Below are positions 11,480-32,005 of a stretch of 39,377 bases of DNA, one piece after another (position 1 is the first letter of the stretch; the number at the start of each line of letters is the position of its first letter). The DNA comes from Bacteroidales bacterium (GTDB lineage: Bacteria; Bacteroidota; Bacteroidia; Bacteroidales; UBA932). The translations under genes and the position numbers were made by a program. The DNA lies in assembly GCA_028691975.1 (NCBI GenBank), contig JAQUYF010000013.1, positions 1 through 39,377 of the forward strand, written 5' to 3'. Under the pieces are notes generated by a model, which worked only from the letters and a program-made list of their open reading frames with translations, had not been told where the DNA came from and did no database searches.

Positions 11480-12880
11480 ATGAAACGCAACCATCTGTTT
11501 ATCAAAATTGTAGCAGCCATACTGCTTGTTATCATCGTATTATTTATTACAGCAAGACTGGTCAACAAGGCTCCGTCAAAAGAGCTGTCTGCTTCTTTGC
11601 AAACAAAAGCCATTATTGATGACGGCGGCTGCCTTGCATGTCACAACGACCCTCCTAAATTTCCATGGTATGCCAAGCTGCCTGTTGTGAAGAATATGCT
11701 TGCAAGTGATGCGGCAAACGCTCTAAAGCAAATCAATTTGAGCGAAGCATATACTACTCTCGCAACCAATTCGCCTATGGGACAGGTCGCACTGAACAAG
11801 ATTGAAAATGCAGTAACGCACCAAACCATGCCTCCTGCAAGATTTTCCGTAATGCACTGGAAATCCAAAATCACAAAAGCTAAAAGGGAGAGCCTCTTGA
11901 GTTGGGCAAAAGGTCACCGTTTAACCTTTTATAACAACGGCCTGGCGGCAGAGGAGTTTCGCAATGAGCCTGTACAGCCGATTCAAGACAGTATCCCTGT
12001 TGATGTCCGCAAGGTTATTTTAGGAGAGATGCTGTTTCATGACGTACGACTCTCTTTAGACAATACTCTTTCCTGTGCAAGTTGCCACGACTTGACGACT
12101 GCAGGTATGGACAATGAAATAGTTTCAGACGGAGTCGGGGGTGCAGTCGGGCAGATCAACTCTCCTACGGTGTATAATTCGGTTTACAATTTTGTACAAT
12201 TCTGGGACGGACGTGCCAATACCCTTGCAGAACAGGCAGCAGGCCCACCATTAAATCCTATTGAGATGGCCTCAAAGTCATTTGATCAGATAATTGAAAA
12301 GCTACGGCAAGATAAAGCATTCACCAAAGCTTTTCTTGAAGTCTATCCGGAAATGAGTGAGTCCACTATTACCGATGCAATCGGTGAATTTGAAAAGACT
12401 TTGCTGACTCCTAATTCTCGGTTTGACAAATATCTTAAAGGTGACTTGACAGCTCTTTCAGCTCAGGAAATATCAGGCTATGAACTCTTTAAGTCACACG
12501 AGTGCGCTACCTGCCACAGTGGTGTCACTCTTGGAGGACAGTCATACGAATACCTGGGCCTTGCGCAGGACTATTTTGCAGAGAGAGGCACTGATATAAC
12601 GGAGGAAGATGGAGGTCGCTTTAAGCAGACCGGAAAGCAATATGATATGCACCGATTTAAGGTCCCCGGACTTAGAAACATAGCCCTCACCGAGCCATAT
12701 TTTCATGACGGTACTCAAAAAAGCCTTGAAGATGCCGTATCTGCCATGCTGAAATATCAGCTGGGCGTATCCGTACCGGATAATGAGATTGGTGACATAG
12801 TCGCCTTCCTCAAGACCCTCACAGGTGAATACAAAGGGATCCCGCTGACCAACGGAACTACTTCATCAACTCGTAAGTAG
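11480..12880 (+). CDS. Tri-haem cytochrome c peroxidase (MauG/CcpA-like)
   Basis: It likely reduces hydrogen peroxide in the periplasm with c-type haem. The 466-residue protein has an N-terminal membrane anchor or uncleaved signal (residues 8-26). A Haem_bd-type domain follows with CLACH at 51-55 and NDPPKFPWYAKLPV. The di-haem peroxidase domain has CASCH at 199-203 and CATCH at 342-346, the FWDGRANTLAEQAAGPPLNPIEM segment and FHDGTQKSLEDAV. Three CxxCH motifs mean a third electron-relay haem compared with classical di-haem enzymes. The last 23 bp overlap the convergent acetyltransferase gene. Confidence 0.93.
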   Translation: MKRNHLFIKIVAAILLVIIVLFITARLVNKAPSKELSASLQTKAIIDDGGCLACHNDPPKFPWYAKLPVVKNMLASDAANALKQINLSEAYTTLATNSPMGQVALNKIENAVTHQTMPPARFSVMHWKSKITKAKRESLLSWAKGHRLTFYNNGLAAEEFRNEPVQPIQDSIPVDVRKVILGEMLFHDVRLSLDNTLSCASCHDLTTAGMDNEIVSDGVGGAVGQINSPTVYNSVYNFVQFWDGRANTLAEQAAGPPLNPIEMASKSFDQIIEKLRQDKAFTKAFLEVYPEMSESTITDAIGEFEKTLLTPNSRFDKYLKGDLTALSAQEISGYELFKSHECATCHSGVTLGGQSYEYLGLAQDYFAERGTDITEEDGGRFKQTGKQYDMHRFKVPGLRNIALTEPYFHDGTQKSLEDAVSAMLKYQLGVSVPDNEIGDIVAFLKTLTGEYKGIPLTNGTTSSTRK

Positions 12881-13319
12881 TGTAGTGGGAACCGTTCATG
12901 CCAATGGCTTCGTATACTTTCTGAGCCCTGGTATTGCGCTTATCCACATAGAGGCGAAGCCCCTTTACATCGGTCGTTGACTGTATGATTGTGTTAACGT
13001 GCTCATAAAGAGCGGTGAAAACACCTTTTTCTCGATACTCCGGCATAACATATAATGACTGAATCCACCAGACCCAGCCATTACGCCAGTCGCTCCACTC
13101 ATCGGTTACCATAAGGACGCCGACTATTCCCTTGACCCCATCAACTTCGGCTACAAAGTAAGTACCGAGTGCAGGATCGGCAATGGCAGCTTTTACCCCC
13201 TTTGTAACAAGAGCTTCATCTAATGCCTCACCCTCTGTTTCAAGAGCCATTTTCATTTGAAAATCGACTATTTTCGCCCTGTCGGAGGCTCTGGCTACCC
13301 TGATTTTAGTTATTTCCAT
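12858..13319 (-). CDS. GNAT family N-acetyltransferase
   Basis: This 153-residue protein has the GNAT acetyl-CoA fold. It starts [23 protein letters not shown], has a central WWIQSLYVMPEYREKGVFTALYEH (motif A, with R/Q-x-x-G/A-like EKGVFTAL), and ends LYVDKRNTRAQKVYEAIGM (motif B). The acceptor substrate is unknown. It is the last gene of the seven-gene minus-strand operon and overlaps the upstream SDR gene by 14 bp. Whether it acts in the upstream signalling and transport system is not shown by sequence. Confidence 0.88.
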   Translation of the reverse strand: MEITKIRVARASDRAKIVDFQMKMALETEGEALDEALVTKGVKAAIADPALGTYFVAEVDGVKGIVGVLMVTDEWSDWRNGWVWWIQSLYVMPEYREKGVFTALYEHVNTIIQSTTDVKGLRLYVDKRNTRAQKVYEAIGMNGSHYTTYELMK

Positions 13320-14049
13320 CTCTAATGATTTTAAGTTTAACCCACAACCCGCGAGGAATCAGCCTCCATACGGCTACCACAATAGACCATCTCCAATCCA
13401 CTACTTTAAATCTCCGCTGAGAACTGATAGCCTTGAATATCCTTTTTGCAGCATAATCAAGATCCATCGTCATCGGATACTTGTGATGAATAAAGTCAGT
13501 CCTGATAAAGCCGGGTTGTATGGTAGTAAATTTGATTTTATAATGTTTATACCCCGCCACCTGTTCAAGCGCTTCAAGGTATTGTGCCTGAAAGCGTTTT
13601 GAAGCAGAATAGCAAGCAGCAGTGCCAAGTCCCTTAGTCGCAGCGATAGAGGATATGGTAGCAATATGCCCTTCCTTTCGGTTCTCACCGAAATAGTTGA
13701 ATGCAGTATCCACCATTTTTACGAATCCCTTAACATTGACCTCAACGGAAAACAGCTCCCTGTCTACAACTATGTCTCTGGTATTGACTCCGTATCCGGC
13801 ACAGTAAATCAGCCTGTCCATTCCTCCCATTTGCTCAACAAGAGAGAGTAAACGTTGAGGCGCATCATCCATAGAGACATCCATCTCGGCAGTGAAGACC
13901 CGACCATCCGGACATTCCATTTTCAGACTTGAAAGCAACTCCGCTCTGCGTCCCGTAACCCCTATAACAGCACCTTCGGCGGCATATCTGAGAGCAAGAT
14001 ACCGCCCGATACCCGAAGTACCACCTACAATTACAATTTTTTGCATCAT
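13306..14049 (-). CDS. SDR family NAD(P)-dependent oxidoreductase
   Basis: A classical short-chain dehydrogenase of 247 residues. It has the cofactor loop GGTSGIG (9-15), YCAGYGVNT (NAG-like), catalytic Ser in TISSIAA (133-134) and YSASK (147-151). The last 30 residues include a hydrophobic stretch ([14 protein letters not shown]) that could associate with membrane. Substrate unknown. It overlaps the ABC ATPase gene by 4 bp and the GNAT gene by 14 bp, so it is translationally coupled to the transporter operon. Confidence 0.9.
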
Positions 14050-15173
14050 AACTTAATAATCATGGAGAGACGGGACTTGTCATCAACCGCCTCTTCCTCA
14101 ATTGAACTGGAAATGCCTGAAATAATAGTCATACTCAGATCATCGGAAGCTCCGGATTCCTTCAAAATAGAAGGCAAATTATTTGTGACCGTAAAAAATA
14201 CGATAACCTGCCTGTCCTGCTCTGAAAAGTCTATGGAAAGTTCTATCCCGCCTCCTGTCTTGATAATCTCATTGCGCTGTTCCAGGTTTTCCGAACTGAA
14301 ATAAAGTTGCAGACTCTCCTCAACCAGTAAAAGTATCGACTGCGTCAGCTTTGGTTTGAAAAAATGTTTATCACAGAAGTTTGTAATGGCAGTATTCATA
14401 CCATAGAAATCGTAATTCTTATCTTCAATATGATATCTGAAGTTTCGTATTCTATGGATAAATGTCCTGGTCTTTTCTCTCTTAGGATGGTTGAAAATCT
14501 CATCGGGAGTACCCTCTTCGTATATCGTACCTTCATTCATAAAGAAGATACGGGTAGATACATCACGGGCAAAATTCATCTCATGAGTAACGATTGCCAT
14601 CGTCATTCCGTCCTTAGCAAGCCTGCGAATAACCCCGAGGACCTCACTCACCATTGTCGGATCAAGGGCGGAAGTAGGCTCGTCAAACAAAATGATATCC
14701 GGATTCATAGAAAGGCACCTTGCAATAGCAACACGCTGCTTCTGCCCTCCTGAAAGCTCATTCGGAAAAGAATTTTCCTTGGCAGCAAGCCCCACCATCT
14801 GCAGAAGTTCCCGTCCGCGGTTCTCTGCATCTTCCCTACTGAGACCCAAAAGTTTGGTAGGACCGATTGTGAGATTATCAATAATAGATAGATGGTCAAA
14901 CAAATTAAAATTCTGAAAAACCATTCCCATCTTCAGTCTGACCTTGTTAATATCTGTTTTCGGGGAGAGGGTATCCACACCGTTAATCTCAATCACTCCA
15001 CTTGAGGGAGTCTCCAATAAGTTTAGACACCTCAAAAATGTACTTTTACCGGTCCCGGAGGGGCCAATAATCGAAATAACTTCGCCTTTATGTATTTCTG
15101 CATTGATATCTTTCAGAACGACTAAATCGCCAAAATGCTTTGAAAGATGCTCAACTTTTATCATTGCTTCCAT
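14046..15173 (-). CDS. Polar amino-acid-type ABC ATPase with a C-terminal extension
   Basis: Residues 1-242 form a GlnQ/HisP-type ATPase: Walker A GPSGTGKS (37-44), Q-loop [11 protein letters not shown], signature LSGGQKQR (140-147), Walker B ILFDEP (161-166) and switch His197. Such proteins are usually about 240 residues; here about 130 more follow. The extension (245-375) contains [15 protein letters not shown], which resembles the N-box helix of RsbW-like HATPases (EE pair at 285-286), and a strand pattern ending in SRLSMIIKL, but no intact G-boxes. I infer a degenerate HATPase-like regulatory domain; this needs structural confirmation. It lies 2 bp after the permease fusion and is the transporter's motor. 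Confidence 0.9.
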
Positions 15174-15175
15174 AT

Positions 15176-17353
15176 TTACTTTGTTTTTCTTCGTGGTGAA
15201 GCCTTAACTTCAATCATATTCACAAATAGAGTAAGCAGCCACGCTATCAGGAAGTAGATAGCTGCTACAAAGATCAACGGGAAGAAAGCATCAAATGTCC
15301 TGCTTCGAATAATATCACCCATCTTCGTAAGGTCCTGCACTGCAATATAACCCACAATAGAGGTCATTTTGACTAAGGATATAAACTCACCTTTATAAAC
15401 AGGAAGCACTCTTGTAAGTGCCTGGGGGAAAATAATATTTACAAATGTCTGGACCTTGCTGAAACCCATTGCCACACCGGCCTCCATCTGACCTCGGTCT
15501 ATACTTTCAATAGCCGTTCTGAACATTTCAGAAACGTATGCTGCAAAATTCAAAGAAAATGTGATAATAGCCACTGTTATGCCACTTATCCCGATAGAGG
15601 CGAATACTACATAAAACATGATCATCAAGAGAACCACTTGTGGAATGCCGCGCAAAAGACTGATGTAAACAGCAGCTATTCCCTTGAGTATCTTATTTTT
15701 ACTCATTCGCATCGCACATACAACTCCGCCGAACAGAGTGCCGAAAATGATAGAAAGAAGCGAAATTATCAAAGTGTTTTTCAAGCCATTCAATATCATC
15801 ATATATCGCTTTTCTTTGATGATATTATTGTAAAAACTCTCCTTAATATTATCAACCCACGTCTTATGACCACCGGTGACATCTTCTTTAGGCACAATAA
15901 TACATGTATTGGAGGTTAGGTAAGGATCAGAATAGAGGACTTTCTGTTTTCGCTCTGCGGTAGGCATGATATGATTGGTCGCCATATCGACTTTGTGAGT
16001 CATTACAGCTGCAATAAGTCCGCTAAAGGTATATGCCTGAAATACCGGCTTCTTATTAATACTGGCAGCAAAACGCTCGACCATCTCTACATCAAATCCT
16101 GCAAGATTTCCATTTATGACATAGGAAAACGGGAAAGCCTCTCCTGTAGTACCGATTACCAAGACGCCGTCGTCTCCTGAATTTGGAATGTCCGGCGCAG
16201 TTACTGTCTGATTGTTGAAAATCCATTTGTCCACCAAAGTATCTCTCTCCCCTGATGAGACAAATTCACTCAAAAAGTGATTAAATTTGTTAATCAACCG
16301 CTCATTGCCGAAGGAAGAGATAACACATATCGAATCGACTTTGACGGAATCACGCAAGATGACATAGCCTTCATGTTCTTTCAAAAAGGCCGTGGTAGCG
16401 TAATAATCAAGCATAACGGCATTACAGACATTATCGTGAAGCGCAAGTACCATCTGATCTACATTGTCATATCTCAAAACCTTCGAATCAGTATATGTTG
16501 CAGTCGCAAATATATCCTGAGCAGATCCCGTCAGAACGCCCAAGACCTTTCCATCCAGCCAATTTTTATCTTCAGGTTCCGAATAGATAACGGCGCTTGC
16601 ATAGGAGTCATAATAAGAATCGGAGAATATGACATTCTTCTTCCTTTCTGCTGTAATAGTAATACTGGAAGCAATTGCATCCACCTTACCGGTAGTAACA
16701 GCTGCTATCAAAGAGGAGAAAGGCATTGTGACAAACTTTGGAACCATCTGCTTGCTCGCGCAGAAACGGGACATCATTTCGATATCAATCCCCTCATTCA
16801 TTCCATCCTTAATGAAAGTAAACGGAAAAAGAAGCGGATCGGTTCCGATTGTCAGTTCGCCAACCTTTTCACCGTAATCGATTGCCGGCATTTCTGCCGA
16901 CATGTCACTTTTACTCCATCGATCAATTATTTCCTTTAGAAGCCCGCTGCTACGTATGGAGGCGAGGAAAATGTTAAATTCGTCACGAAGACTCTGATCA
17001 TGAAAACCAATGCCAAACGGCTCGTAGTAAATATTGGGCTCCAGCATGGAAAGCTGAGGAGTAGTAGTGCAGAGCAAATCCGCAAGTGCTCCATCAAGAA
17101 TAATCACATCAGCCTGCCCGGAATTCAACGCTGCCGTTAAATCGGTAACAGACTCCAGTCTCAAAATCTCAGCGTCAGGGAAAGCGTTTGTCGCATACTC
17201 ATCATGAGTCGTCCCCATGGTAACACCTATCCTCTTGCCATGCAAATCATCCATTGAGGTAATTCGTGCAGACTTCCCCTTATTTGAGGCACAAGAGGTT
17301 GCAAAAAGAAACAAAAATGCAGAAAAAATAATTTCTAACGTCCTTGCTTTCAT
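15176..17353 (-). CDS. Binding-protein/permease fusion of a polar amino-acid-type ABC transporter
   Basis: A 725-residue protein. A lipoprotein-like signal with Cys21 (ATSC) starts it. Residues 34-147 resemble the second half of an SBP_bac_3 domain ([16 protein letters not shown] through LLKEIIDRW). Residues 166-378 are a complete SBP_bac_3 domain, and 396-488 only a first half ([14 protein letters not shown] to [14 protein letters not shown]). Residues 520-712 are a HisM/GlnP-type permease with about five helices and the EAA loop ([15 protein letters not shown], 623-637). The half-whole-half order is unusual. The partner ATPase is the next gene. The ligand is probably an amino acid, but pocket residues cannot be assigned reliably. 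It lies 11 bp after the STAS gene. Confidence 0.92.
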
Positions 17354-17364
17354 TGCATTATCTT

Positions 17365-17667
17365 CTATTCGAACTTAAATAAAGGGGAAAATCCACACAT
17401 ATCGAAAATGCCCCTAAGATCAGCGTTCATATCCCTGATAAGGACTGATCCGCCGCGACTCTTCACACTCTTGAGAATCGACAGGAAAATCCTCAGTCCG
17501 GAACTGCTGATGTACTCAAAATTAACACAATTGACCTCCACATCTTTGGTATTACCCGTCAAAATAGGTTCAACAGTCTTTTCAAAATCGCCTGAATTCA
17601 TAGAATCAAGCCTGCCGGAAATGGTAATAATAGCCTTTTCTCCTTGTTGTTCAATTTTAGCTTCCAT
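17365..17667 (-). CDS. STAS-domain anti-sigma-factor-antagonist-like protein
   Basis: A 100-residue single STAS domain of the SpoIIAA/RsbV kind. Such proteins are phosphorylated by an RsbW-like kinase, dephosphorylated by a PP2C phosphatase, and in the unphosphorylated state capture a partner. The conserved segment NFEYISSSGLRIFL (50-62) places the likely phospho-acceptor at Ser55, in the same position as Ser58 of SpoIIAA. It sits 16 bp after the phosphatase/kinase-like gene and 11 bp before the transporter fusion. Its downstream partner (sigma factor, anti-sigma factor or transporter domain) is not identifiable here. Confidence 0.94.
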   Translation of the reverse strand: MEAKIEQQGEKAIITISGRLDSMNSGDFEKTVEPILTGNTKDVEVNCVNFEYISSSGLRIFLSILKSVKSRGGSVLIRDMNADLRGIFDMCGFSPLFKFE

Positions 17668-17683
17668 AATTTATTTTATTTGT

Positions 17684-20020
17684 TTATTTCTTATTTATTG
17701 CTTTTCTTAATGTCAAAATATTCTGATTGTTACGTCTGTTATACTCCACATCATCCATCAATTGCTTGACTAAAAAGACTCCCAGTCCTCCTATCTGCCT
17801 GTCTTCTGCAGCAAGAGTTATGTCCGGATCTTCTTTTTCTGCCGGATTGAATGGAATACCACTGTCTGTAATTACAAAAGTAAGTACGGATGCACACTCA
17901 GAAAGCTCTACTTCAAATGTCCCCGGCTTACCGGCGTATGCATACATTATCACATTCACAATAACCTCTTCCATAGATAGTTGCAAAGGCATAGCCATCT
18001 CTGGCGGAACATTAACCTTTTCAAAGAAGCTATCCATCGCCAACTTTAAAGTCTCGACTTCAGACATCTCATTTTTCAGAGTCAGGACCTCCGAATAATT
18101 TGAAAATTTTGAAGTAATCGTCAAAATAGTCAAGTCGTCGGACTGATCAGCCTTCCCTACATGCTTGGCGACATCCGCAAGAACCACCTGCACCTGACGC
18201 TTGGAAGAATAGCGCTGCTTCCCCTGCATTATGGCAAGCAATCTGTCATCTCCATATAATTCCTTAGTCTCGCTTTCAGCTTCAGTTAAACCATCGGTAT
18301 AGCAGAATAACACCGCTCCATTTGCAAGTTGAGTCACCTCATCTTCATAAGGGAAATCGTGGAACAGACCAATAGGGATATTTGGCTTCATCGGGAAGAA
18401 AGAGACGGTATCATCACTCAAAAGTACAGGATGATTATGACCGGCATTGCAATACCTTAACTCACCCGTCTTAAGATTGAGTATCCCGAGAAACAAAGTA
18501 ACAAACATATTTGAATCATTACCTTCAGTTATGGCATTGCTTATAGAAGAGACAATATCCGCAGGCTTTTTAAGATAAGCGGAATTGGATCTGAATAAAC
18601 TTCTTGTCACAGCCATCAACAGAGAAGCTGGAACCCCCTTGCCTGAAACATCACCTATTATGAAATAGAGCAAATCCCCTTCAATATAGAAGTCATACAA
18701 GTCACCTCCTACTTCCTTGGCCGGATCCAGAGAAGCGTATATATCCAGATCTGTACGAGTTGGGAATGCAGGGAATGTCTTAGGAATCATACCCTGCTGT
18801 ATATTGTGTGCAATACGTAACTCACTTTCTATTTTTTCCTTGGCAGAGGCCGTACTCTCTAAAGAAGCCATGTAGTGCACTAACTCTTTCTGCATATATC
18901 CGAAAGAATCACGAAGCTCTTTCATTTCATCCTTTGACGATATTTCGGGAAGAGCCACATTGAAATCCCCATGTGCTACTTTTTTTGCCGAAGCGGCAAA
19001 AGACTTAAGAGGAGAGGCTACTTTCTGCATGGTCAGACGGCAGAAAACTAAAATCAGCAACAAACCGAACAGTGCCACATTAAAGACAACCTGGCTCATT
19101 TTCGACAAATCGGCAAAGATATCATCCTTAGGACAAACCATTGCCAACGACCACCCTATCTGTTCAATCGGAGCATAAAAGAAGTAGCAAAGCTTATCGT
19201 CTCTGACTATCTTTGCCTCACCCGACTCTCCGTCCACCATCTTCTGACCCAAGCTTTGCATAACAGTAGGATCTTCATCCTCAAGTGCTATGGAAAAGAT
19301 TGATTCATTAAGAATCTTATCCTTATCAGGGTGCACAATGAACGTACCGCCGCATCCGATAGCGAATGAATACGAGTTAGGGTATGGTTTTAGATTCTGT
19401 ACCGTAGTACTCAGCCAGTCAAGAGATATATCCGCTGTCAAAACCCCGATAAACTCGCCGTTTTTATTTCTCAATATTGTGGAATAGGTCGATACAATTG
19501 ATTCCCCACCACCTTCATCATAATATGGTTCCGTCCAGAAGTTCTTATCCAACAACTTGGGGATCTGATACCATTCCATGGTAAAATAATCATGGTCAGG
19601 ATTGCCTAACTGCTTGACTACAACCGAGTCGCCCTGTCTATATGCAAACGGAGAGAAATAATAACCCTTATCCTTGAAATAGTACGGCTCAAAGGCTACG
19701 GCACATCCGGCAATATCAGTGTTATTGGCAACTATTTGGCGAACAAGTAGATACACTGTATCGGCTGGAAGATTTCCATCTTCCACCACCAATTTAATAT
19801 TATCTACCATCTTGCTTATTCCGGACAACAATCTTTCCATTTCAAGAGTAGTCTTGGCCATGGTGACTTCAGCATTCTTCATCGCACTGCTTTCCACCGT
19901 CTTGTAGGAAAAATAAAAAGAGACTGAAAGTGTAGCAATAAAAACGATACCGACTACAATAATGATGTACATGCTGGTCCGCGCAGCAAATGACTCTCTT
20001 ATTTTGAAGAACTTTTTCAT
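17684..20020 (-). CDS. Transmembrane Cache-HAMP-PP2C (SpoIIE/RsbU-type) phosphatase with C-terminal HATPase
   Basis: A 778-residue inner-membrane sensor. TM1 is about 17-39. A dCache-like periplasmic domain occupies about 45-305 (CAVAFEPYYFKDKGYYFSPFAY, TADISLDWLS). TM2 is about 310-329 and a HAMP linker about 330-385. The PP2C domain (400-638) has GGDLYDF (438-444), GDVSGKG (456-462), YTDGLTEAES and SDDLTIL with the metal Asp residues. The C-terminal HATPase (640-775) has an N-box EEVIVNV (684-690), DSGIPFNP (719-726) and GGLG (744-747). Phosphatase and RsbW-like kinase functions therefore share one chain, and the STAS protein next door is the expected substrate. It overlaps the upstream NMT1-like gene by 4 bp (ATGA). 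Confidence 0.95.
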   Translation of the reverse strand: MKKFFKIRESFAARTSMYIIIVVGIVFIATLSVSFYFSYKTVESSAMKNAEVTMAKTTLEMERLLSGISKMVDNIKLVVEDGNLPADTVYLLVRQIVANNTDIAGCAVAFEPYYFKDKGYYFSPFAYRQGDSVVVKQLGNPDHDYFTMEWYQIPKLLDKNFWTEPYYDEGGGESIVSTYSTILRNKNGEFIGVLTADISLDWLSTTVQNLKPYPNSYSFAIGCGGTFIVHPDKDKILNESIFSIALEDEDPTVMQSLGQKMVDGESGEAKIVRDDKLCYFFYAPIEQIGWSLAMVCPKDDIFADLSKMSQVVFNVALFGLLLILVFCRLTMQKVASPLKSFAASAKKVAHGDFNVALPEISSKDEMKELRDSFGYMQKELVHYMASLESTASAKEKIESELRIAHNIQQGMIPKTFPAFPTRTDLDIYASLDPAKEVGGDLYDFYIEGDLLYFIIGDVSGKGVPASLLMAVTRSLFRSNSAYLKKPADIVSSISNAITEGNDSNMFVTLFLGILNLKTGELRYCNAGHNHPVLLSDDTVSFFPMKPNIPIGLFHDFPYEDEVTQLANGAVLFCYTDGLTEAESETKELYGDDRLLAIMQGKQRYSSKRQVQVVLADVAKHVGKADQSDDLTILTITSKFSNYSEVLTLKNEMSEVETLKLAMDSFFEKVNVPPEMAMPLQLSMEEVIVNVIMYAYAGKPGTFEVELSECASVLTFVITDSGIPFNPAEKEDPDITLAAEDRQIGGLGVFLVKQLMDDVEYNRRNNQNILTLRKAINKK

Positions 20021-20985
20021 TTTGACTCTGCTTTAGGTGCAACAAATTCATCATAAGGTATATCCTTCCTTATAAATCCATTCTTTCTCAGAATGTCATT
20101 GGCGAACTTATAAATGGCAGGATCAAGCGTATAAGAAGCTGTGCAGGTCTCTTTGTTAACCTGCAGTTCCATAATTTTTTCCAACATCCATCTCTGGTGA
20201 GAGAGGCTGCTTGCGATATTGTCTTTCTTCATCCATTTGCGAACAATCTCCACACTCTCTTCAGGATGGGCACGTGCATACTCCCACCCCCTGCGGGAAG
20301 CCTCGGCAAAAAGATTCATGTCTTTTGATCTCTTTCTATATGTGGATTTAAGGCAATACAGACCATCCTCAGGAATATTATATCCGTAATCCGCAAGATG
20401 AAATGTGTTATCAAGCGTCACCCTCCGGCCACAATTCATCACTTGGAAATATTCGTTATAGTACATTGTGAGAATCCCGTCAACAGCACCACTTACAAAG
20501 TAATTGACTCCGGAGGGGATATTTATCCATTGGATATTATGTTCGTTGTCCCTTGCCATGCATCGAGCCAACTCACTGAATCCGCTCGTCCATGCAGCCA
20601 CTCTCTTACCTGAAAGCTCAGCTAACGAAGTAATCCCAGGCTGCGTAACGACTACAAGACCGTTGGTCTGACTGCTTTGCAAAATATTTACCAGGTCTAT
20701 TCCCTCATCTTTTGCAACCATAGCCTGAAGCAATTGAGTGGAAATCACATCTGCCTCGCCATGTTTTAACCTGGAAATACTTGTCGTAGACATACCCGGA
20801 GAGACAATTTCAACATCAAGCCCCGATTCCTTATAGAAGCCTTTTTCAATAGCTACGTAGTACCCTGCAAACTGTGCCTGAGTCTGCCATTGCGGAGTAA
20901 AGATTATCTTGTGCAGCTCTTGTGCAGACAATGTCGCGCAAGAGAGCGCTAACACAAAAAGTAAATTTGTAAGAAGCCGTTTCAT
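20017..20985 (-). CDS. NMT1/ThiY-like periplasmic binding protein
   Basis: A 322-residue secreted protein. A Sec signal (residues 1-21, cleavage likely at LSA/QE) is followed by an NMT1-like fold: TPQWQTQAQFAGYYVAIEKGFYKESGLDVEIV, then ISRLKHGEADVISTQLLQAM and LAELSGKRVAAWTSGF. Relatives bind pyrimidine precursors, sulfonates or taurine. No permease or ATPase of that transporter class lies nearby. Its gene leads the operon and overlaps the Cache-phosphatase gene, so I infer a sensory role, presenting a ligand to the phosphatase. Related domains are known as sensory inputs in other signalling proteins. Confidence 0.88.
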   Translation of the reverse strand: MKRLLTNLLFVLALSCATLSAQELHKIIFTPQWQTQAQFAGYYVAIEKGFYKESGLDVEIVSPGMSTTSISRLKHGEADVISTQLLQAMVAKDEGIDLVNILQSSQTNGLVVVTQPGITSLAELSGKRVAAWTSGFSELARCMARDNEHNIQWINIPSGVNYFVSGAVDGILTMYYNEYFQVMNCGRRVTLDNTFHLADYGYNIPEDGLYCLKSTYRKRSKDMNLFAEASRRGWEYARAHPEESVEIVRKWMKKDNIASSLSHQRWMLEKIMELQVNKETCTASYTLDPAIYKFANDILRKNGFIRKDIPYDEFVAPKAESK

Positions 20986-21050: not shown

Positions 21051-22238
21051 CTATTTATTTTTCAAATATGTTTCAATGTCTTTATCGCCACGTCCTGAAA
21101 CAGTCAGGACTACAATATCATCTTTTTTAAACGATAGCTTCGAAAGAGCTCCAAGGGCATGAGAACTCTCCAGAGCAGGGATAATACCCTCCAGCCGAGT
21201 CAGTTCAAACGCGGCCGCAATCGCTTCACTGTCGGTTATTGCCGGAACGGATACACGACCAGTAGTAGCAAGATTGGCAATCATAGGGCCAATACCCGGA
21301 TAGTCCAAACCGGGAGAGACCGAATAGGCCTCAAGCACATTACCATTATCATCCTGCATGACCAAGCTCTTCGATCCATGAAGAATACCCACTTTACCTT
21401 CATTTATGGTAGCAGCACTCTTGCCGGAATGAACACCCATACCTGCGGCTTCCGCCAAAACAATATTCACTCTTTTGTCATCTATATAATGGTAAATTGT
21501 GCCGGAAGCGTTGCTTCCTCCTCCTATGCAAGCCAGCAGGTAATCAGGATAATCACGTCCCTCTTTTTCCATCAGTTGCTTTTTAATTTCCTCACTGATA
21601 ACAGATTGAAAATATGCGACCATATCAGGGAACGGATGAGGACCGACTGCGGAACCGATAAGATAATAGGTCTCCTTAAAGGTTTTACACCAATCCATCA
21701 AAGCGGCATCCACCGCATTGGCAAGTGTGCCGGTTCCGGCTTCAACACCCGAAACGGTAGCTCCAAGCATCCTCATTTTTTCCACATTAAGCCGCTGCCT
21801 CTCCATATCGACTGTCCCCATGTAGATGGTACATTCCATCCCCATCAGAGCCGCAACTGTGGCCGCAGCAAGTCCGTGCTGTCCTGCACCTGTCTCTGCA
21901 ATAATTCTCTTTTTACCCATCCTTTTGGCAAGTAAAGCATGTCCGATAGCATTGTTAATCTTGTGTGCTCCGGTATGATTCAAATCTTCCCTCTTCAGGT
22001 AAATCTTACAGCCATATTTTTCAGACATTCTTTGTGCAAGATACAGAGGCGATGGCCGTCCGACATAATCTCTTAATAAAGACTTATACTCTGCCTGAAA
22101 ATTAGGATCTGTTATCATATCATAATAGTGAGATTGCAGCTCATTGATTGAATCCTGCAGTACATCGGGAATGAAGGCCCCGCCAAATGGTCCGTAAAAT
22201 CCGTTTTCATCTGCCAAAAAAGTTTTTCTTGTTGTCAT
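21051..22238 (-). CDS. trpB: Tryptophan synthase beta chain
   Basis: TrpB joins indole and serine to make tryptophan. The 395-residue PLP enzyme has YGPFGGAFIPD, LKREDLNHTGAHKINN with the PLP Lys at 93, AETGAGQHGLA with catalytic Glu115, the phosphate loop CIGGGSNASG, and VLTVSGRGDKD near the end. In the usual SAGLDYPGxGPxH segment it reads SPGLDYPGIGPMI, two substitutions against what I expect for the family. No other trp gene is in the window and the next gene downstream has its own promoter, so this copy stands alone. It could use free indole or partner a distant TrpA. It is controlled by a Trp-codon leader upstream. Confidence 0.96.
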   Translation of the reverse strand: MTTRKTFLADENGFYGPFGGAFIPDVLQDSINELQSHYYDMITDPNFQAEYKSLLRDYVGRPSPLYLAQRMSEKYGCKIYLKREDLNHTGAHKINNAIGHALLAKRMGKKRIIAETGAGQHGLAAATVAALMGMECTIYMGTVDMERQRLNVEKMRMLGATVSGVEAGTGTLANAVDAALMDWCKTFKETYYLIGSAVGPHPFPDMVAYFQSVISEEIKKQLMEKEGRDYPDYLLACIGGGSNASGTIYHYIDDKRVNIVLAEAAGMGVHSGKSAATINEGKVGILHGSKSLVMQDDNGNVLEAYSVSPGLDYPGIGPMIANLATTGRVSVPAITDSEAIAAAFELTRLEGIIPALESSHALGALSKLSFKKDDIVVLTVSGRGDKDIETYLKNK

Positions 22239-24933: not shown

Positions 24934-25383
24934 TCACCTGTCATAATCTTTGACATTCGGCGAAAGTCTGCGCTTGCGAAACATGCAGGCTGTCACGCCC
25001 ATTGTCTTGACAAGGTAATAATTCATTGCTCTTTCGCTCGCAAAGCCGCTTCTCTCGGCAATATCTCCCACTTTAAGATTACGGCTTTCATCATTGCCCA
25101 TCAACTCAATAGCATATTGAATTCTGAACGAATTGATATAGGACTTAAAGTTCAACCCTTTGGCACTCAATACCCTTGTCACGTAAGTTCTGTTGGACGC
25201 CGCCTCTCTTGCCACATCCTTGATGCTAAGTTTGTTATCAAGATACAGTCTCTTCCTGGTAAGTGTTCGTTCCATGCGATCAAAAAGTTCTTCATTTGAA
25301 ATTCCCCTGTGAAAACATACTTTTCCAGGATGTTTTCTCTTCAACTTTTCAAGCAACTTAGTTAGAATGTCTCTTGCCAACAT
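24934..25383 (-). CDS. Small AraC-type HTH regulator (second of a pair)
   Basis: A 149-residue protein with a complete AraC-type DNA-binding domain: first helix-turn-helix around SIKDVAREAASNRTYVTRVLSAKGLNFKSYIN, second around KVGDIAERSGFASERAMNYYLVKTMGVTACMFRKRR. There is no ligand-binding domain. It overlaps the upstream AraC-type gene by 26 bp, so both are co-translated and may act as partners. Both have full two-HTH domains, which argues against a single frameshifted gene. Confidence 0.82.
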   Translation of the reverse strand: MLARDILTKLLEKLKRKHPGKVCFHRGISNEELFDRMERTLTRKRLYLDNKLSIKDVAREAASNRTYVTRVLSAKGLNFKSYINSFRIQYAIELMGNDESRNLKVGDIAERSGFASERAMNYYLVKTMGVTACMFRKRRLSPNVKDYDR

Positions 25384-25927
25384 AATTTTCCTCCGTTACG
25401 CTCTTCTTTTTGAAATCTTTACACCACTCGGCCGGAGTGAAGCCCGTATTTCTACCGAAGGCTGTATTAAATGTTGTCATAGAGTTAAACCCCACCATTT
25501 TAGATAACTCGGTAATGCTCAATTCAGGATCTTCTGTAAACATTTTGATTGCATCCCGAACCCTGTAGTAGTGAACCAATTGACAAAAATTCTTATTTGT
25601 CCTGGCTTTAATGGCCCTTGACAAATAGGTCTTGTTGGTAAATAACTTCTCGGCGATATCGGCAATTCTAATGTTAGGGTCGAGGTAAGTTTTTTCTTTT
25701 TCAAACAAATTGAAGAGCCTCATTTTGATCTCCTCATAATCATCGCAGCCTTCAGTATCAAGCAGCATTCTCTCTTTCGAGGGCAACTGCTCCACCTTCT
25801 CCTTATAGGAATGAGGCTTGGTAGTTAATAATTTATCTCGGTGACGGTAGATAAATGAAAATACGATTGCCATAATTACCAATAACGGCACGTATAAGAT
25901 TAGGATAATTAATAATGTGTTAGTCAT
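25358..25927 (-). CDS. Membrane-anchored AraC-type HTH regulator (first of a pair)
   Basis: A 189-residue protein with an N-terminal transmembrane helix (about residues 4-26, LLIILILYVPLLVIMAIVFSF) and a short basic linker. A complete AraC-type domain follows (RIADIAEKLFTNKTYLSRAIKARTNKNFCQLVHYYRVRDAIK, then SITELSKMVGFNSMTTFNTAFGRNTGFTPAEW). This resembles the C-terminal end of Bacteroidota membrane-bound AraC regulators without their periplasmic TPR sensor. Targets are unknown. A partial -7 match (7 of 8) lies just upstream. Confidence 0.83.
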   Translation of the reverse strand: MTNTLLIILILYVPLLVIMAIVFSFIYRHRDKLLTTKPHSYKEKVEQLPSKERMLLDTEGCDDYEEIKMRLFNLFEKEKTYLDPNIRIADIAEKLFTNKTYLSRAIKARTNKNFCQLVHYYRVRDAIKMFTEDPELSITELSKMVGFNSMTTFNTAFGRNTGFTPAEWCKDFKKKSVTEENYVGKRHSN

Positions 25928-26045: not shown

Positions 26046-26948
26046 TTATTTTTTAATTTGGTCAAAACCTTTGCCGTAAACGCCCATGACATTGCCGACT
26101 GAGATAAATGCCGTATTATCGACCTCTTTGACCAACTTCAGGAGATAATTGGATTCATTTTTACGTACTATTACAACAACAACTTTTCCTTCCTCTTTTG
26201 AATACCAACCCTGACTGTTCAAAATTGTCACCCCTCTTTTTGCTTCATTTGTAATACGATCGGCTATTTCTGCATATTTTTTGGAAAAAATAAATATTTG
26301 CACGGACTGTTTGCTTCCCGATAAAAATGTATCCATCGTAAAACTGAAGACTCCGGCCATTATGTAACCATAAATAACTGTAGCCATTCTATGACCCCAA
26401 CTGCCTTCGGTCGGGATAACCAAAGAAGATGCAATAATCACCATATCAATCAGTACCAATATCTTACCGGGAGAGATACTGCGATATTTATTGATCATAA
26501 GAGCGATAATATCAGTGCCACCGCTACTTCCCCCCTGAGTAAATGTCAAGGCAACACCCACTCCGGAGAGCGCGCCTCCAAAGATAGTACAGAGCAATTT
26601 GCCGTTACTGGTAGCAATCTCATTGATAAAGGATTCGTGTATCATGGACGGAACTACCTTAAAAAATATGGATGTTACAATGATGGCATAAACGGTCTTT
26701 GCACCAAAGCCCTTTCCCAACACTTTTAATGCAATTAAAAGCAATATCGTATTGATAATAAAATAGGAATAACTCACTTCAAATCCGGTACAATATTGAA
26801 TAATTGCGGAAATACCGGTAACACCACCTCCCACCATATTGTTTGGGATAATAAATACAGACCACGCCAAAACATAGCACAACAGCCCCAATGTTATAAT
26901 AAAATAAGACTTTACTGTTGCGAAGATTTTTTTATAACTTGTTTCCAT
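26046..26948 (-). CDS. YitT family membrane protein (DUF161/DUF2179), copy 2
   Basis: A 300-residue protein with about five or six helices (YitT_membrane repeats, FIIPNNMVGGGVTGISAI and FTQGGSSGGTDIIALMINKY). A C-terminal DUF2179 domain follows (KRGVTILNSQGWYSKEEGKVVVVIVRKNE). The transported compound or function is not established. It is a tandem paralog of the upstream gene and overlaps it by 37 bp. Confidence 0.9.
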   Translation of the reverse strand: METSYKKIFATVKSYFIITLGLLCYVLAWSVFIIPNNMVGGGVTGISAIIQYCTGFEVSYSYFIINTILLLIALKVLGKGFGAKTVYAIIVTSIFFKVVPSMIHESFINEIATSNGKLLCTIFGGALSGVGVALTFTQGGSSGGTDIIALMINKYRSISPGKILVLIDMVIIASSLVIPTEGSWGHRMATVIYGYIMAGVFSFTMDTFLSGSKQSVQIFIFSKKYAEIADRITNEAKRGVTILNSQGWYSKEEGKVVVVIVRKNESNYLLKLVKEVDNTAFISVGNVMGVYGKGFDQIKK

Positions 26949-27826
26949 TCTCCTTTTTTTACACCTGTTTTTATTTGATCAAATCCCTTGCCATAAACAT
27001 TCATAACCTGAGAGACTGAGATAAAAGCACTCGAATCGACATCTTTTATTGCACGACTAATCTCCTGCAGCTGATTTTTGCGTGCCACAATTATCAGTAC
27101 CTTCCCTTCTTTTTGAGAAAACCAGCCGATTGAATTTAAGGCTGTGACGCCCCTGTGCATATTTTGCGTCAGCATATCCGCAATATCCTGAAACTTGGAA
27201 GAGAAAACCAATATCTGTACAGACTGCTTGTTGCCCGTCAGTATAGAATCAAGGATATACGAGAATGACACCATCTGGATATAGCCGTAAATCACATCCT
27301 CTAACCCTTTATCAGGCAAGAATATGACAGAGCCTATGATAATCAGGTCGCATGCAAGAAAAACTCTACCGGGCGAAGTTTCTTTATACTTGGAGATAAT
27401 AATAGCGATAATATCGGTTCCTCCGGCACTCCCGCCATTCATAAAGACCAAACCGATACCTACACCACTAAGTGTACCGCCTATGACGGCATTAATAAGC
27501 TTATCTTCAATATCCGATATCCATGGAATAATTGCTGGTAAAAACTGCAACATCAAGGTAGCCAGAATGATACAATATATTGTCTTAAACCCGAATCCCT
27601 TCCCCAATATCAAAGTTCCGAACACCAACAACAGAACATTGATAAGACAATAAGTATATGGCACCGGTATATCGGTAGCAAAAAAGATGACGGAAGCCAT
27701 GCCTGTAACACCGCCGCCGGCAATCCCTTTTGGAATTAAAAAAGCAGTCCAGCTAAAGCAATAGAGAAACATCCCTACCGTCATGACAAGGTACTCTTTA
27801 ATAGTTTTATAGACAGACTTTTGCAT
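26912..27826 (-). CDS. YitT family membrane protein (DUF161/DUF2179), copy 1
   Basis: A 304-residue paralog of the following gene with the same plan: FLIPKGIAGGGVTGMASV, FMNGGSAGGTDIIAIIISKY and a C-terminal DUF2179 (HRGVTALNSIGWFSQKEGKVLIIVARKN). Both end in a VYGKGFDQIK motif, indicating local duplication. It starts 5 bp after the leuS stop codon, so it is probably transcribed from the leuS promoter. Two related copies may form a heteromer. Confidence 0.9.
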   Translation of the reverse strand: MQKSVYKTIKEYLVMTVGMFLYCFSWTAFLIPKGIAGGGVTGMASVIFFATDIPVPYTYCLINVLLLVFGTLILGKGFGFKTIYCIILATLMLQFLPAIIPWISDIEDKLINAVIGGTLSGVGIGLVFMNGGSAGGTDIIAIIISKYKETSPGRVFLACDLIIIGSVIFLPDKGLEDVIYGYIQMVSFSYILDSILTGNKQSVQILVFSSKFQDIADMLTQNMHRGVTALNSIGWFSQKEGKVLIIVARKNQLQEISRAIKDVDSSAFISVSQVMNVYGKGFDQIKTGVKKGEWKQVIKKSSQQ

Positions 27827-30663: not shown

Positions 30664-31950
30664 CTACTTCAACCTAAATTCTACAGGAATGACAATTTTA
30701 GTGCGAACATGCTTTCCTTTAACCTGTCCGGGGATCCACTTTGGAGAGACAGAGACAGCTTTTACAGCCTCGTCATCCAGATCGTCATCTACTCCGCGCG
30801 ATACTTTGACATTTGTCACACTTCCGTCCTTTTCTATGATAAACTCTACCCAGACCGTGCCCTGTATGCCATTGGCAATAGATGCCTTAGGGTACTTGAC
30901 ATATTTATAAACCCAGGAATCCAGAAAGTGCTTTTCATCGGAGTGAAAGAATTGTGGTCGCTTGTCACAGTCTGCAAAAGAATAGATTACCTCCTGCTCA
31001 GCCACAGCACCTTTGGAAGCAGTCAGCGACGGGAAGATATCTGTCTGATTGGAAAGCGTTTTCAAAAAATAAAATATGTAATTGCAGCTACTCTCCAAGT
31101 TATCATATAAAATAAACTTTGGTAAATCTCTGACTGTATGATACTCACGTGTCATACCCGTAGTAAAGAGCACAATTGGGATATGCTGATTGTAAAAAGG
31201 CAGGTGATCCGAAGGGAATACATCCTCGTACAAGATAGAGGGCTGTTGCACAATCGGCTCATCCTTAACAGCATCCATAACAGAAGTCAGGTCCTTCACA
31301 GAGGCCTGTGAAAATATGCTGAACGGATTTTCATCATTTCCCCTGCCCAGCATATCAAGATTTACCATCGCCTTTACCCGTCCAATCCCCTCAAATGCTC
31401 TGTTGACAAAATACCAGGAACCGGCCATACCTTGCTCTTGAGCACCAAATCCGACAAAGATAATCGAACGCGGAAACATAAATTTGCATTGAGAGACTCT
31501 CTCTGCAATATCAATCATGGCCGCTACTCCCGAAGCATCATCATCGGCCCCGGGGTAAATCTGTACGGAGGGCTTTCCATTGATCGTCATTGTATGTGTG
31601 CCGATATGATCAATATGAGCACCTACTACTATATATTCATCTCTCAACTTGGGATCATACCCCTCCACAATACCGACAATATTCAACGAACTGACAGTAT
31701 CGTTTGCTTCTGCAATTGAAAAATCCTGTCCGCCTTTATCGGTAAGCATGGTTACACCGGCATCCACAAGTCTGTCGTACAAATAACCAGCCGCAAGACG
31801 TTCACCTGCGGTACCGGCCTTTCGTCCCTGAAGTGCATCGGAACTAAGGTATTCAACATGTTTTTTAAGATTGACGGCTACCTGCGAAGATTGGGCAAAT
31901 ACCCCAAACGAACAGGTCATCAGTAATAATACGAGGCTTATTTTTTTCAT
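30664..31950 (-). CDS. M28-family peptidase fused to a TonB C-terminal domain
   Basis: A 428-residue exported protein starting at 31950 (MKKISLVLLL, signal peptide to about residue 20); an upstream ATG at 31995 lies before the promoter box. Residues 25-300 are an M28 di-zinc aminopeptidase-like domain. Expected ligands are present: His112 (GAHIDHIG), Asp in GADDDASG (134-141), Glu172, Asp199 (NLDM) and His249 (SDH). The position of the general-base Glu (first of the usual EE pair) is Gln171 (GAQEQG), so activity is doubtful. Residues 335-428 form a TonB C-terminal domain (YPKASIANGIQGTVWVEF...SPKWIPGQVKGKHVR). There is no TonB N-terminal membrane anchor or Pro-rich spacer. Confidence 0.88.
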   Translation of the reverse strand: MKKISLVLLLMTCSFGVFAQSSQVAVNLKKHVEYLSSDALQGRKAGTAGERLAAGYLYDRLVDAGVTMLTDKGGQDFSIAEANDTVSSLNIVGIVEGYDPKLRDEYIVVGAHIDHIGTHTMTINGKPSVQIYPGADDDASGVAAMIDIAERVSQCKFMFPRSIIFVGFGAQEQGMAGSWYFVNRAFEGIGRVKAMVNLDMLGRGNDENPFSIFSQASVKDLTSVMDAVKDEPIVQQPSILYEDVFPSDHLPFYNQHIPIVLFTTGMTREYHTVRDLPKFILYDNLESSCNYIFYFLKTLSNQTDIFPSLTASKGAVAEQEVIYSFADCDKRPQFFHSDEKHFLDSWVYKYVKYPKASIANGIQGTVWVEFIIEKDGSVTNVKVSRGVDDDLDDEAVKAVSVSPKWIPGQVKGKHVRTKIVIPVEFRLK

Positions 31951-31977
31951 ACGGCTATAATTGTTATAGACCTTATG

Positions 31978-31985
31978 CAAAGATA
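31978..31985 (-). promoter_or_regulatory. -7 box for the M28-TonB gene
   Basis: The minus strand reads TATCTTTG, an exact TAnnTTTG match, 27 bp before the start at 31950. It lies inside the longer alternative frame from 31995, which supports the shorter start. Confidence 0.6.
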
Positions 31986-32005
31986 ATGCCTGCATTAGTG
32001 TCGTA

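Follow-up and report, generated by a model that had tools for sequence, protein, structure and literature searches.

MetN, ModC and OpuA are ATP-binding cassette (ABC) ATPases with C-terminal regulatory domains that bind small ligands, and SiaABCD, which is made up of the Cache-PP2C protein SiaA, the kinase SiaB, SiaC and the cyclase SiaD, has a diguanylate cyclase as its output. The closest precedent for the locus described here is MlaB/MlaF, where the STAS protein MlaB is bound to the ABC ATPase MlaF and is thought to regulate it (PMC7367683). Phosphoregulation of MlaB at Ser/Thr is proposed there and left open, and the authors found no other PDB entry that holds both STAS and ABC domains (PMC7367683). 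Here, we describe a cluster of seven genes in a 39,377-nucleotide contig of a Bacteroidales bacterium (JAQUYF010000013.1, assembly GCA_028691975.1; this whole stretch is called the window), in which the ATPase of an amino-acid-type ABC importer ends in a degenerate RsbW/SpoIIAB-type kinase domain, or pseudo-RsbW, as seen by profile and by fold. With moderate confidence, we read the cluster as a partner-switching module with the ABC importer as its output, where periplasmic sensing would set the phosphorylation of a STAS protein and unphosphorylated STAS would dock on the pseudo-RsbW. The features of the cluster, with domains assigned from Pfam and NCBIfam, are given below in the order of transcription.

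20017..20985, minus strand: NMT1/SsuA-like periplasmic binding protein (PF09084, E 1.7e-35)
17684..20020, minus strand: dCache-HAMP-PP2C-HATPase sensor (SpoIIE 3.4e-48, HATPase_c_2 1.6e-23, HAMP, dCache)
17365..17667, minus strand: stand-alone STAS protein of the RsbV/SpoIIAA type (TIGR00377, 64.8 bits, cut-off 53.45)
15176..17353, minus strand: fusion of a family 3 solute-binding protein (SBP), with its lobes in unusual order, to a permease (SBP_bac_3 in three stretches, BPD_transp_1)
14448..15173, minus strand: ABC ATPase core of polar-amino-acid type, residues 1-242 (ABC_tran, 2.8e-34)
14046..14447, minus strand: C-terminal pseudo-RsbW (degenerate HATPase) domain of the ABC ATPase, the proposed STAS receptor (profile, fold, lost catalytic residues)
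13306..14049, minus strand: SDR oxidoreductase, co-transcribed (adh_short, 1.9e-30)
12858..13319, minus strand: GNAT acetyltransferase (Acetyltransf_1, 1.9e-13)

The extension takes up the C-terminal ~135 residues of the ATPase (residues ~240-375) and gives no Pfam HATPase match even at E ≤ 1. A profile made from 12 extensions only (A2) matches the kinase domain of the cluster's own sensor at 17705-18052 (E 1.4e-4), as well as a kinase domain in G383, a genome of the same genus (E 4.4e-9). A further profile of 21 sequences (A3) finds nine stand-alone frames of 144-168 residues in other genomes (E 5.7e-9 to 2.3e-7), and the one of these that was checked (G559, L145) is a HATPase_c_2 protein (E 1.5e-23). 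When the AlphaFold model of the extension (pLDDT 90.7, pTM 0.85) is compared with the PDB using Foldseek, the 17 best matches are all SpoIIAB, UsfX, RsbW or SiaB entries, with a SiaB-SiaC entry among them (E 4.1e-5 to 4.0e-3, 15 at E ≤ 0.001; query-normalised TM 0.49-0.65). The extra domain of the ATPase in the initial annotation is thereby refined to a pseudo-RsbW, and the domain assignments that it gave to the seven genes are borne out by Pfam and NCBIfam.

The residues that make such a domain a kinase are missing from the extension. The N-box Asn is found in 53/53 distinct HATPase domains outside ABC proteins and in 0/116 distinct extensions, where an extension-only alignment puts Ile (45), Leu (44), Met (11), Glu (5), Val (4), Arg (2), Tyr (2), Thr (1), Ala (1) or Phe (1) at this position. 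Likewise, the G1 Asp is present in 53/53 HATPase domains and in none of the 114 extensions tallied (of 116), and the ATP lid is 7-11 residues long in extensions compared with 19-20 in HATPase domains, one of which has 25. The 53 HATPase domains were chosen with a custom profile; among them are two that are joined to a lipid-kinase-like protein and, probably, a sensor-kinase-like one (L028). Judged by these residues, the extension looks unable to phosphorylate STAS. What it retains lies within helix 1, just ahead of it, and in the second helix of the AlphaFold model, the most conserved positions being D255 and F266 (each 116/116), C267 (113), E286 (111), E285 (110) and K269 (109). In a joint alignment, with the kinase of the window aligned to RsbW (6m36), E286 falls on the position of RsbW Glu49, which is reported to touch the phosphorylatable Ser56 of RsbV (PMC7340262). 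The same report assigns the RsbW dimer interface to helix 1 and strand 1 (PMC7340262), so the conservation in helix 1 is ambiguous.

The remaining parts of the circuit appear intact. The sensor joins phosphatase and RsbW-type kinase domains in one chain, and its HATPase domain, aligned to RsbW 6m36, keeps the N-box Asn, the G1 Asp and the G2 Gly. Alignment of the cluster STAS to SpoIIAA (1th8_B) predicts Ser55 as the phospho-site, opposite a Ser that we take to be the SpoIIAA phosphorylation site, and Ser occupies this position in 58/58 distinct STAS proteins. The cluster appears to encode the PP2C phosphatase, the intact HATPase kinase and the phosphorylatable STAS protein of an RsbU/V/W-type partner-switching module. 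The module works like the sigma-controlling class but is not filed there.

In the mechanism that we propose, the NMT1-like protein and the dCache domain would sense a periplasmic compound and thereby set PP2C activity, with the NMT1/SsuA-like protein likely presenting the ligand to the sensor; its gene adjoins the Cache-PP2C gene in 19/20 loci of one set, and also in L099-L104. The HATPase domain would phosphorylate STAS on Ser55 and the PP2C domain would take the phosphate off. Unphosphorylated STAS would then bind the pseudo-RsbW domain at the C-terminus of the ABC ATPase and thereby turn the importer up or down. The sensing and phosphorylation steps follow from known families, while what we infer is the docking step, its dependence on phosphorylation, the ligand, and whether import is raised or lowered; docking is specific to this system. 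The initial annotation had suggested a STAS circuit possibly acting on the transporter itself, a suggestion that now has strong indirect support from the pseudo-RsbW extension and from the recurrence of the circuit beside the ABC variant in many phyla.

The ABC-extension variant spans many phyla. Matches were found in 17/295 genomes at the order level (the extension of the window, E ≤ 0.01), in 41/199 at the family level (A2, E ≤ 0.001) and in 52/395 at the phylum level (A3, E ≤ 1e-6), tallies that include some kinase domains. A cross-species scan covered 84,980 species with a single genome per species, and the best 80 of 170 relatives were kept, a set that is biased to relatives of the query and contains near-duplicates and many metagenome-assembled genomes. 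Judged by their record titles, carriers among these best 80 of 170 include Chlorobiaceae, Ignavibacteria, Geobacteraceae, Desulfobacteraceae, Methylobacter, Methylovulum, Nitrotoga, Rhodocyclus, Pelotomaculum, Kuenenia, Gemmatimonadota, Acidobacteria, KSB1 and others, and a linked locus is present in the named strains Methylobacter tundripaludum OWC-G53F (L203) and M. marinus A45 (L207). In three loci (L112:5445-8144, L113:1053-4466 and L115:5964-8666), a single chain of 899-1137 residues unites the permease and binding domains with the ABC ATPase and its pseudo-RsbW extension.

Circuit genes recur around this variant. Within 8 kb, the 80 loci hold a STAS gene in 34 cases, a kinase in 25, a PP2C in 25 and an NMT1 gene in 19; any of STAS, kinase and PP2C is present in 36, at least two of them in 31 and all three in 17, and STAS lies no more than 100 bp away on the same strand in 25/80. 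When restricted to the 51 full-flank loci (6 kb or more before and 3 kb or more after), the corresponding counts over 8 kb are 23 with any of the three, 20 with at least two and 14 with all three, and a same-strand STAS gene lies no more than 100 bp away in 15/51. As a control, we looked for the ATPase core in 20 genomes that hold linked loci and retrieved 40 regions, around hits lacking the extension plus two more, of which L278 was dropped because extensions are present there. STAS, kinase, PP2C or NMT1 genes are found in 0/39 of these control ABC regions (from 15/20 genomes), and the difference from 23/51 is significant (Fisher p 1.8e-7), where many control ATPases are only distantly of the amino-acid type and some control regions have short flanks.

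Gene order differs between lineages. In Bacteroidales it is NMT1-PP2C-kinase-STAS-transporter (L100-L103), with PP2C and kinase fused in the window and in L099, and in Chlorobiaceae it is NMT1-PP2C-transporter-STAS-kinase (L141, L142, L144, L147, L148; L143 starts at PP2C), an order shared by L187 of Geobacteraceae. Seven loci (L191, L202, L203, L205, L207, L219, L234) have a convergent instead of a co-oriented kinase gene, that of L203 being a HATPase_c_2 gene (E 8.1e-20). We lean slightly towards the wider claim that this is a cross-phylum class of ABC importers whose ATPase acquired an inactive kinase domain of the anti-sigma type to serve as receptor of a phospho-regulated STAS protein, such that a PP2C/kinase pair would gate nutrient uptake post-translationally.

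Several results weigh against reading the importer as the output of the circuit. STAS, kinase and PP2C are all missing within 8 kb in 28/51 full-flank loci, so that the ABC variant is not consistently tied to the module. Conversely, NMT1-PP2C-kinase-STAS modules are found without a nearby ABC gene in L104, L120-L128 and L136, and the eight module genomes of L104 and L120-L126 give no ABC-extension match in the family-level A2 scan, so STAS must have other targets there. The initial annotation had listed STAS/PP2C genes regularly lying away from the transporter as evidence against its idea, and these loci go part of the way in that direction, next to the 23 of 51 that are linked. Linkage is thus strong but not obligatory. 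On a quick tree of 109 ABC proteins, with some long branches, 22 changes are required to explain the linked label, and starred branches force no fewer than 12 of them; the label is still more clustered than in all 500 shuffles, which average 29.9 changes and never reach so low a number, and the 51 loci are therefore not independent. A first mirror-tree comparison of STAS and extension, given the core, reached a partial correlation of 0.65 over 37 loci, but the signal was not specific once controls were added. In the 22 loci with all seven parts, the partial correlations are 0.49 for STAS, 0.49 for NMT1, 0.38 for PP2C, 0.39 for Cache and 0.40 for the permease, and because this signal is unspecific, we do not count it towards contact between STAS and the extension. 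Finally, a HMMER search of PDB sequences with the extension profile found no RsbW/SpoIIAB chain; both HATPase_c_2 and PDB sequence searches are blind to the extension, and its kinship rests on in-family profiles and on fold.

Unlinked loci do not necessarily lack a partner. A TIGR00377 STAS protein is present at E ≤ 1e-5 in 45/46 genomes that were picked from the 80 for being mostly unlinked (the linked ones being L172 and L222), 41 of them over the cut-off, compared with 6/14 controls, 4 over the cut-off, so STAS could act in trans in those genomes.

The main rival to the importer as output is a reversed flow of information. Here, the transport cycle would expose or hide the pseudo-RsbW, which would soak up or release STAS and so report flux to a target elsewhere. 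The STAS modules without a nearby ABC gene imply other STAS targets, and the genome of the window encodes a further HATPase_c_2 protein at another place (G000:C100), both of which suit such a reporter; the dedicated NMT1/Cache-PP2C sensor, however, already gives the circuit an input. We regard flux reporting as possible, though unlikely.

An improbable alternative is that the extension is merely a structural or dimerization domain, with the PP2C-kinase-STAS genes linked through shared expression or a shared ligand and STAS acting elsewhere. The conservation in helix 1 may indeed reflect dimerization, given the helix 1 and strand 1 interface described for RsbW (PMC7340262), and both the full-flank loci without a partner gene and the unspecific coevolution test agree with such a role. 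However, an RsbW-derived domain lies beside an RsbV-type STAS in many phyla and keeps E286, aligned to the STAS-contacting Glu, and the STAS proteins found in 45/46 genomes, most of which have an unlinked ABC-extension locus, also speak against a purely structural part. A conventional sigma circuit, with sigma and anti-sigma elsewhere and the transporter a neighbor by chance, is what RsbU/V/W circuits are best known for, but it is highly improbable here, since a SigB/F/G-type model, the one sigma class searched for, is over its cut-off in 0/10 genomes, the single further over-cut-off HATPase_c_2 domain in the window's genome, which is 86.9% complete, adjoins an iron-hydrogenase-like gene, and the 0/39 control ABC regions with circuit neighbors speak against chance.

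The earlier statement that no sigma factor is encoded holds for the 28 open reading frames of the window that were scanned (8 at E ≤ 1, 20 at E ≤ 1e-5), in which no sigma-factor family was found. The genome of the window has two STAS matches, the stand-alone STAS of the cluster and one in a 701-residue frame (G000:C104, L297) that, on visual comparison, is similar to the STAS-TCAD9 fusions in L111 and L118. In those two loci (L111:14163-16406 and L118:12627-14750), STAS is fused to TCAD9/APH-like domains a few genes downstream of an ABC-extension transporter. The two HATPase_c_2 domains over the cut-off in the same genome are that of the cluster and a 139-residue protein (G000:C100:8925-9284, L287) encoded just before the iron-hydrogenase-like gene (Fe_hyd_lg_C, 9.7e-22). 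In two other loci (L133:7132-8436 and L138:4307-5710), a YegS/diacylglycerol-kinase-like enzyme is fused to an RsbW-type HATPase beside NMT1, Cache-PP2C and STAS genes, apparently another enzyme wired into such a circuit.

The layout of the cluster is as compact as the initial annotation had described, with seven genes on one strand and overlaps or gaps of at most 16 bp; in transcription order, the intergenic distances are -4, 16, 11, 2, -4 and -14 bp. Separate internal promoters had been named as a sign against the initial annotation's idea, and these gaps are too small to leave room for intergenic promoters. E. coli-type scans, a model that may not suit this organism, find 16 promoters against a shuffle mean of 18.5 and 5 terminators against 6.5 in shuffles.

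By family matches, the transporter is of the polar amino acid ABC importer type, with the HisP/GlnQ-type ATPase, HEQRo-type permease and SBP_bac_3 all matched. The permease part of the fusion scores 69.5 bits with TIGR01726 (cut-off 42.2), and the best NCBIfam models for the ATPase are TcyN, GlnQ and EhuA, each under its own cut-off; among the best 25 models for the ATPase and for the SBP-permease fusion, no equivalog that would name a substrate reached its cut-off. The start of the SBP is second-lobe-like (TIGR02995, residues 4-152 to profile 106-265), and the stretch before the permease is first-lobe-like (PRK11260, residues 394-491 to profile 39-137). From these matches, the solute-binding part of 15176-17353 appears to be circularly permuted. 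With PADLOC, the ABC protein matches ATPase-type models only, and the other four proteins tested give no match.

In the same-genus locus L099 (genome G383), the order TrpB, NMT1, Cache-PP2C-HATPase, STAS, SBP-permease, ABC and SDR is kept at 52-78% protein identity. Conserved order, which had been proposed as a check across Bacteroidota, thus holds for six of the families in this locus, where the GNAT is not matched by a profile based on a single sequence. The SDR copy at the same place in L099 is 67% identical, and among the mapped loci an SDR is matched beside the cluster only there; the GNAT profile matches no mapped locus. The SDR and the GNAT, which the initial annotation had counted as parts of the device, are probably local passengers. 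Directly upstream of the cluster, on the same strand, lies trpB (21051-22238), as it does in G383. Elsewhere in the window are two short overlapping AraC-type regulator genes (24934-25927), two overlapping YitT/DUF2179 membrane-protein genes in tandem (26046-27826) and an M28-family peptidase with a C-terminal TonB_C domain (30664-31995).

In open PMC papers, with subscription papers and preprints outside the scope, no description of the arrangement of PP2C, kinase and STAS with an ABC extension was found. A review of STAS-only proteins does not contain the word "ABC" in its main text (PMC8256260), and neither "ABC" nor "transporter" is present in PMC11418112. Whether phosphorylation sets the control of ABC ATPases by STAS is left open for MlaB (PMC7367683). 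As the ATPase, candidate STAS receptor, STAS, kinase and phosphatase are encoded together here, and also in named strains, the question becomes directly testable. If the proposed mechanism is true, a pseudokinase form of the RsbW fold would serve as a docking module outside transcription, and partner switching would have transport, not transcription, as its output.

Like RsbU/RsbV/RsbW and SpoIIE/SpoIIAA/SpoIIAB, the cluster combines a PP2C phosphatase, a HATPase kinase and a STAS phosphoprotein whose sites are conserved, whereas no sigma factor is found beside it and the apparent third partner is the pseudokinase domain of the transporter. With SiaABCD it shares a Cache-HAMP-PP2C sensor and a non-sigma output, but in place of a diguanylate cyclase the output here appears to be an importer, and the sensor scores 79 bits against a cut-off of 700 with the SiaA equivalog. 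Like MetN, ModC and OpuA, the ATPase carries a regulatory domain after its core; theirs bind small ligands, whereas this one has a protein-kinase-derived fold. In MlaFEDB, a STAS protein, MlaB, binds the ABC ATPase, as we propose for the STAS protein of the cluster. However, no Mla model is among the best 25 NCBIfam models for the cluster ATPase, which is of the amino-acid-importer type, carries a pseudo-RsbW of its own, and has the cognate kinase and phosphatase encoded alongside.

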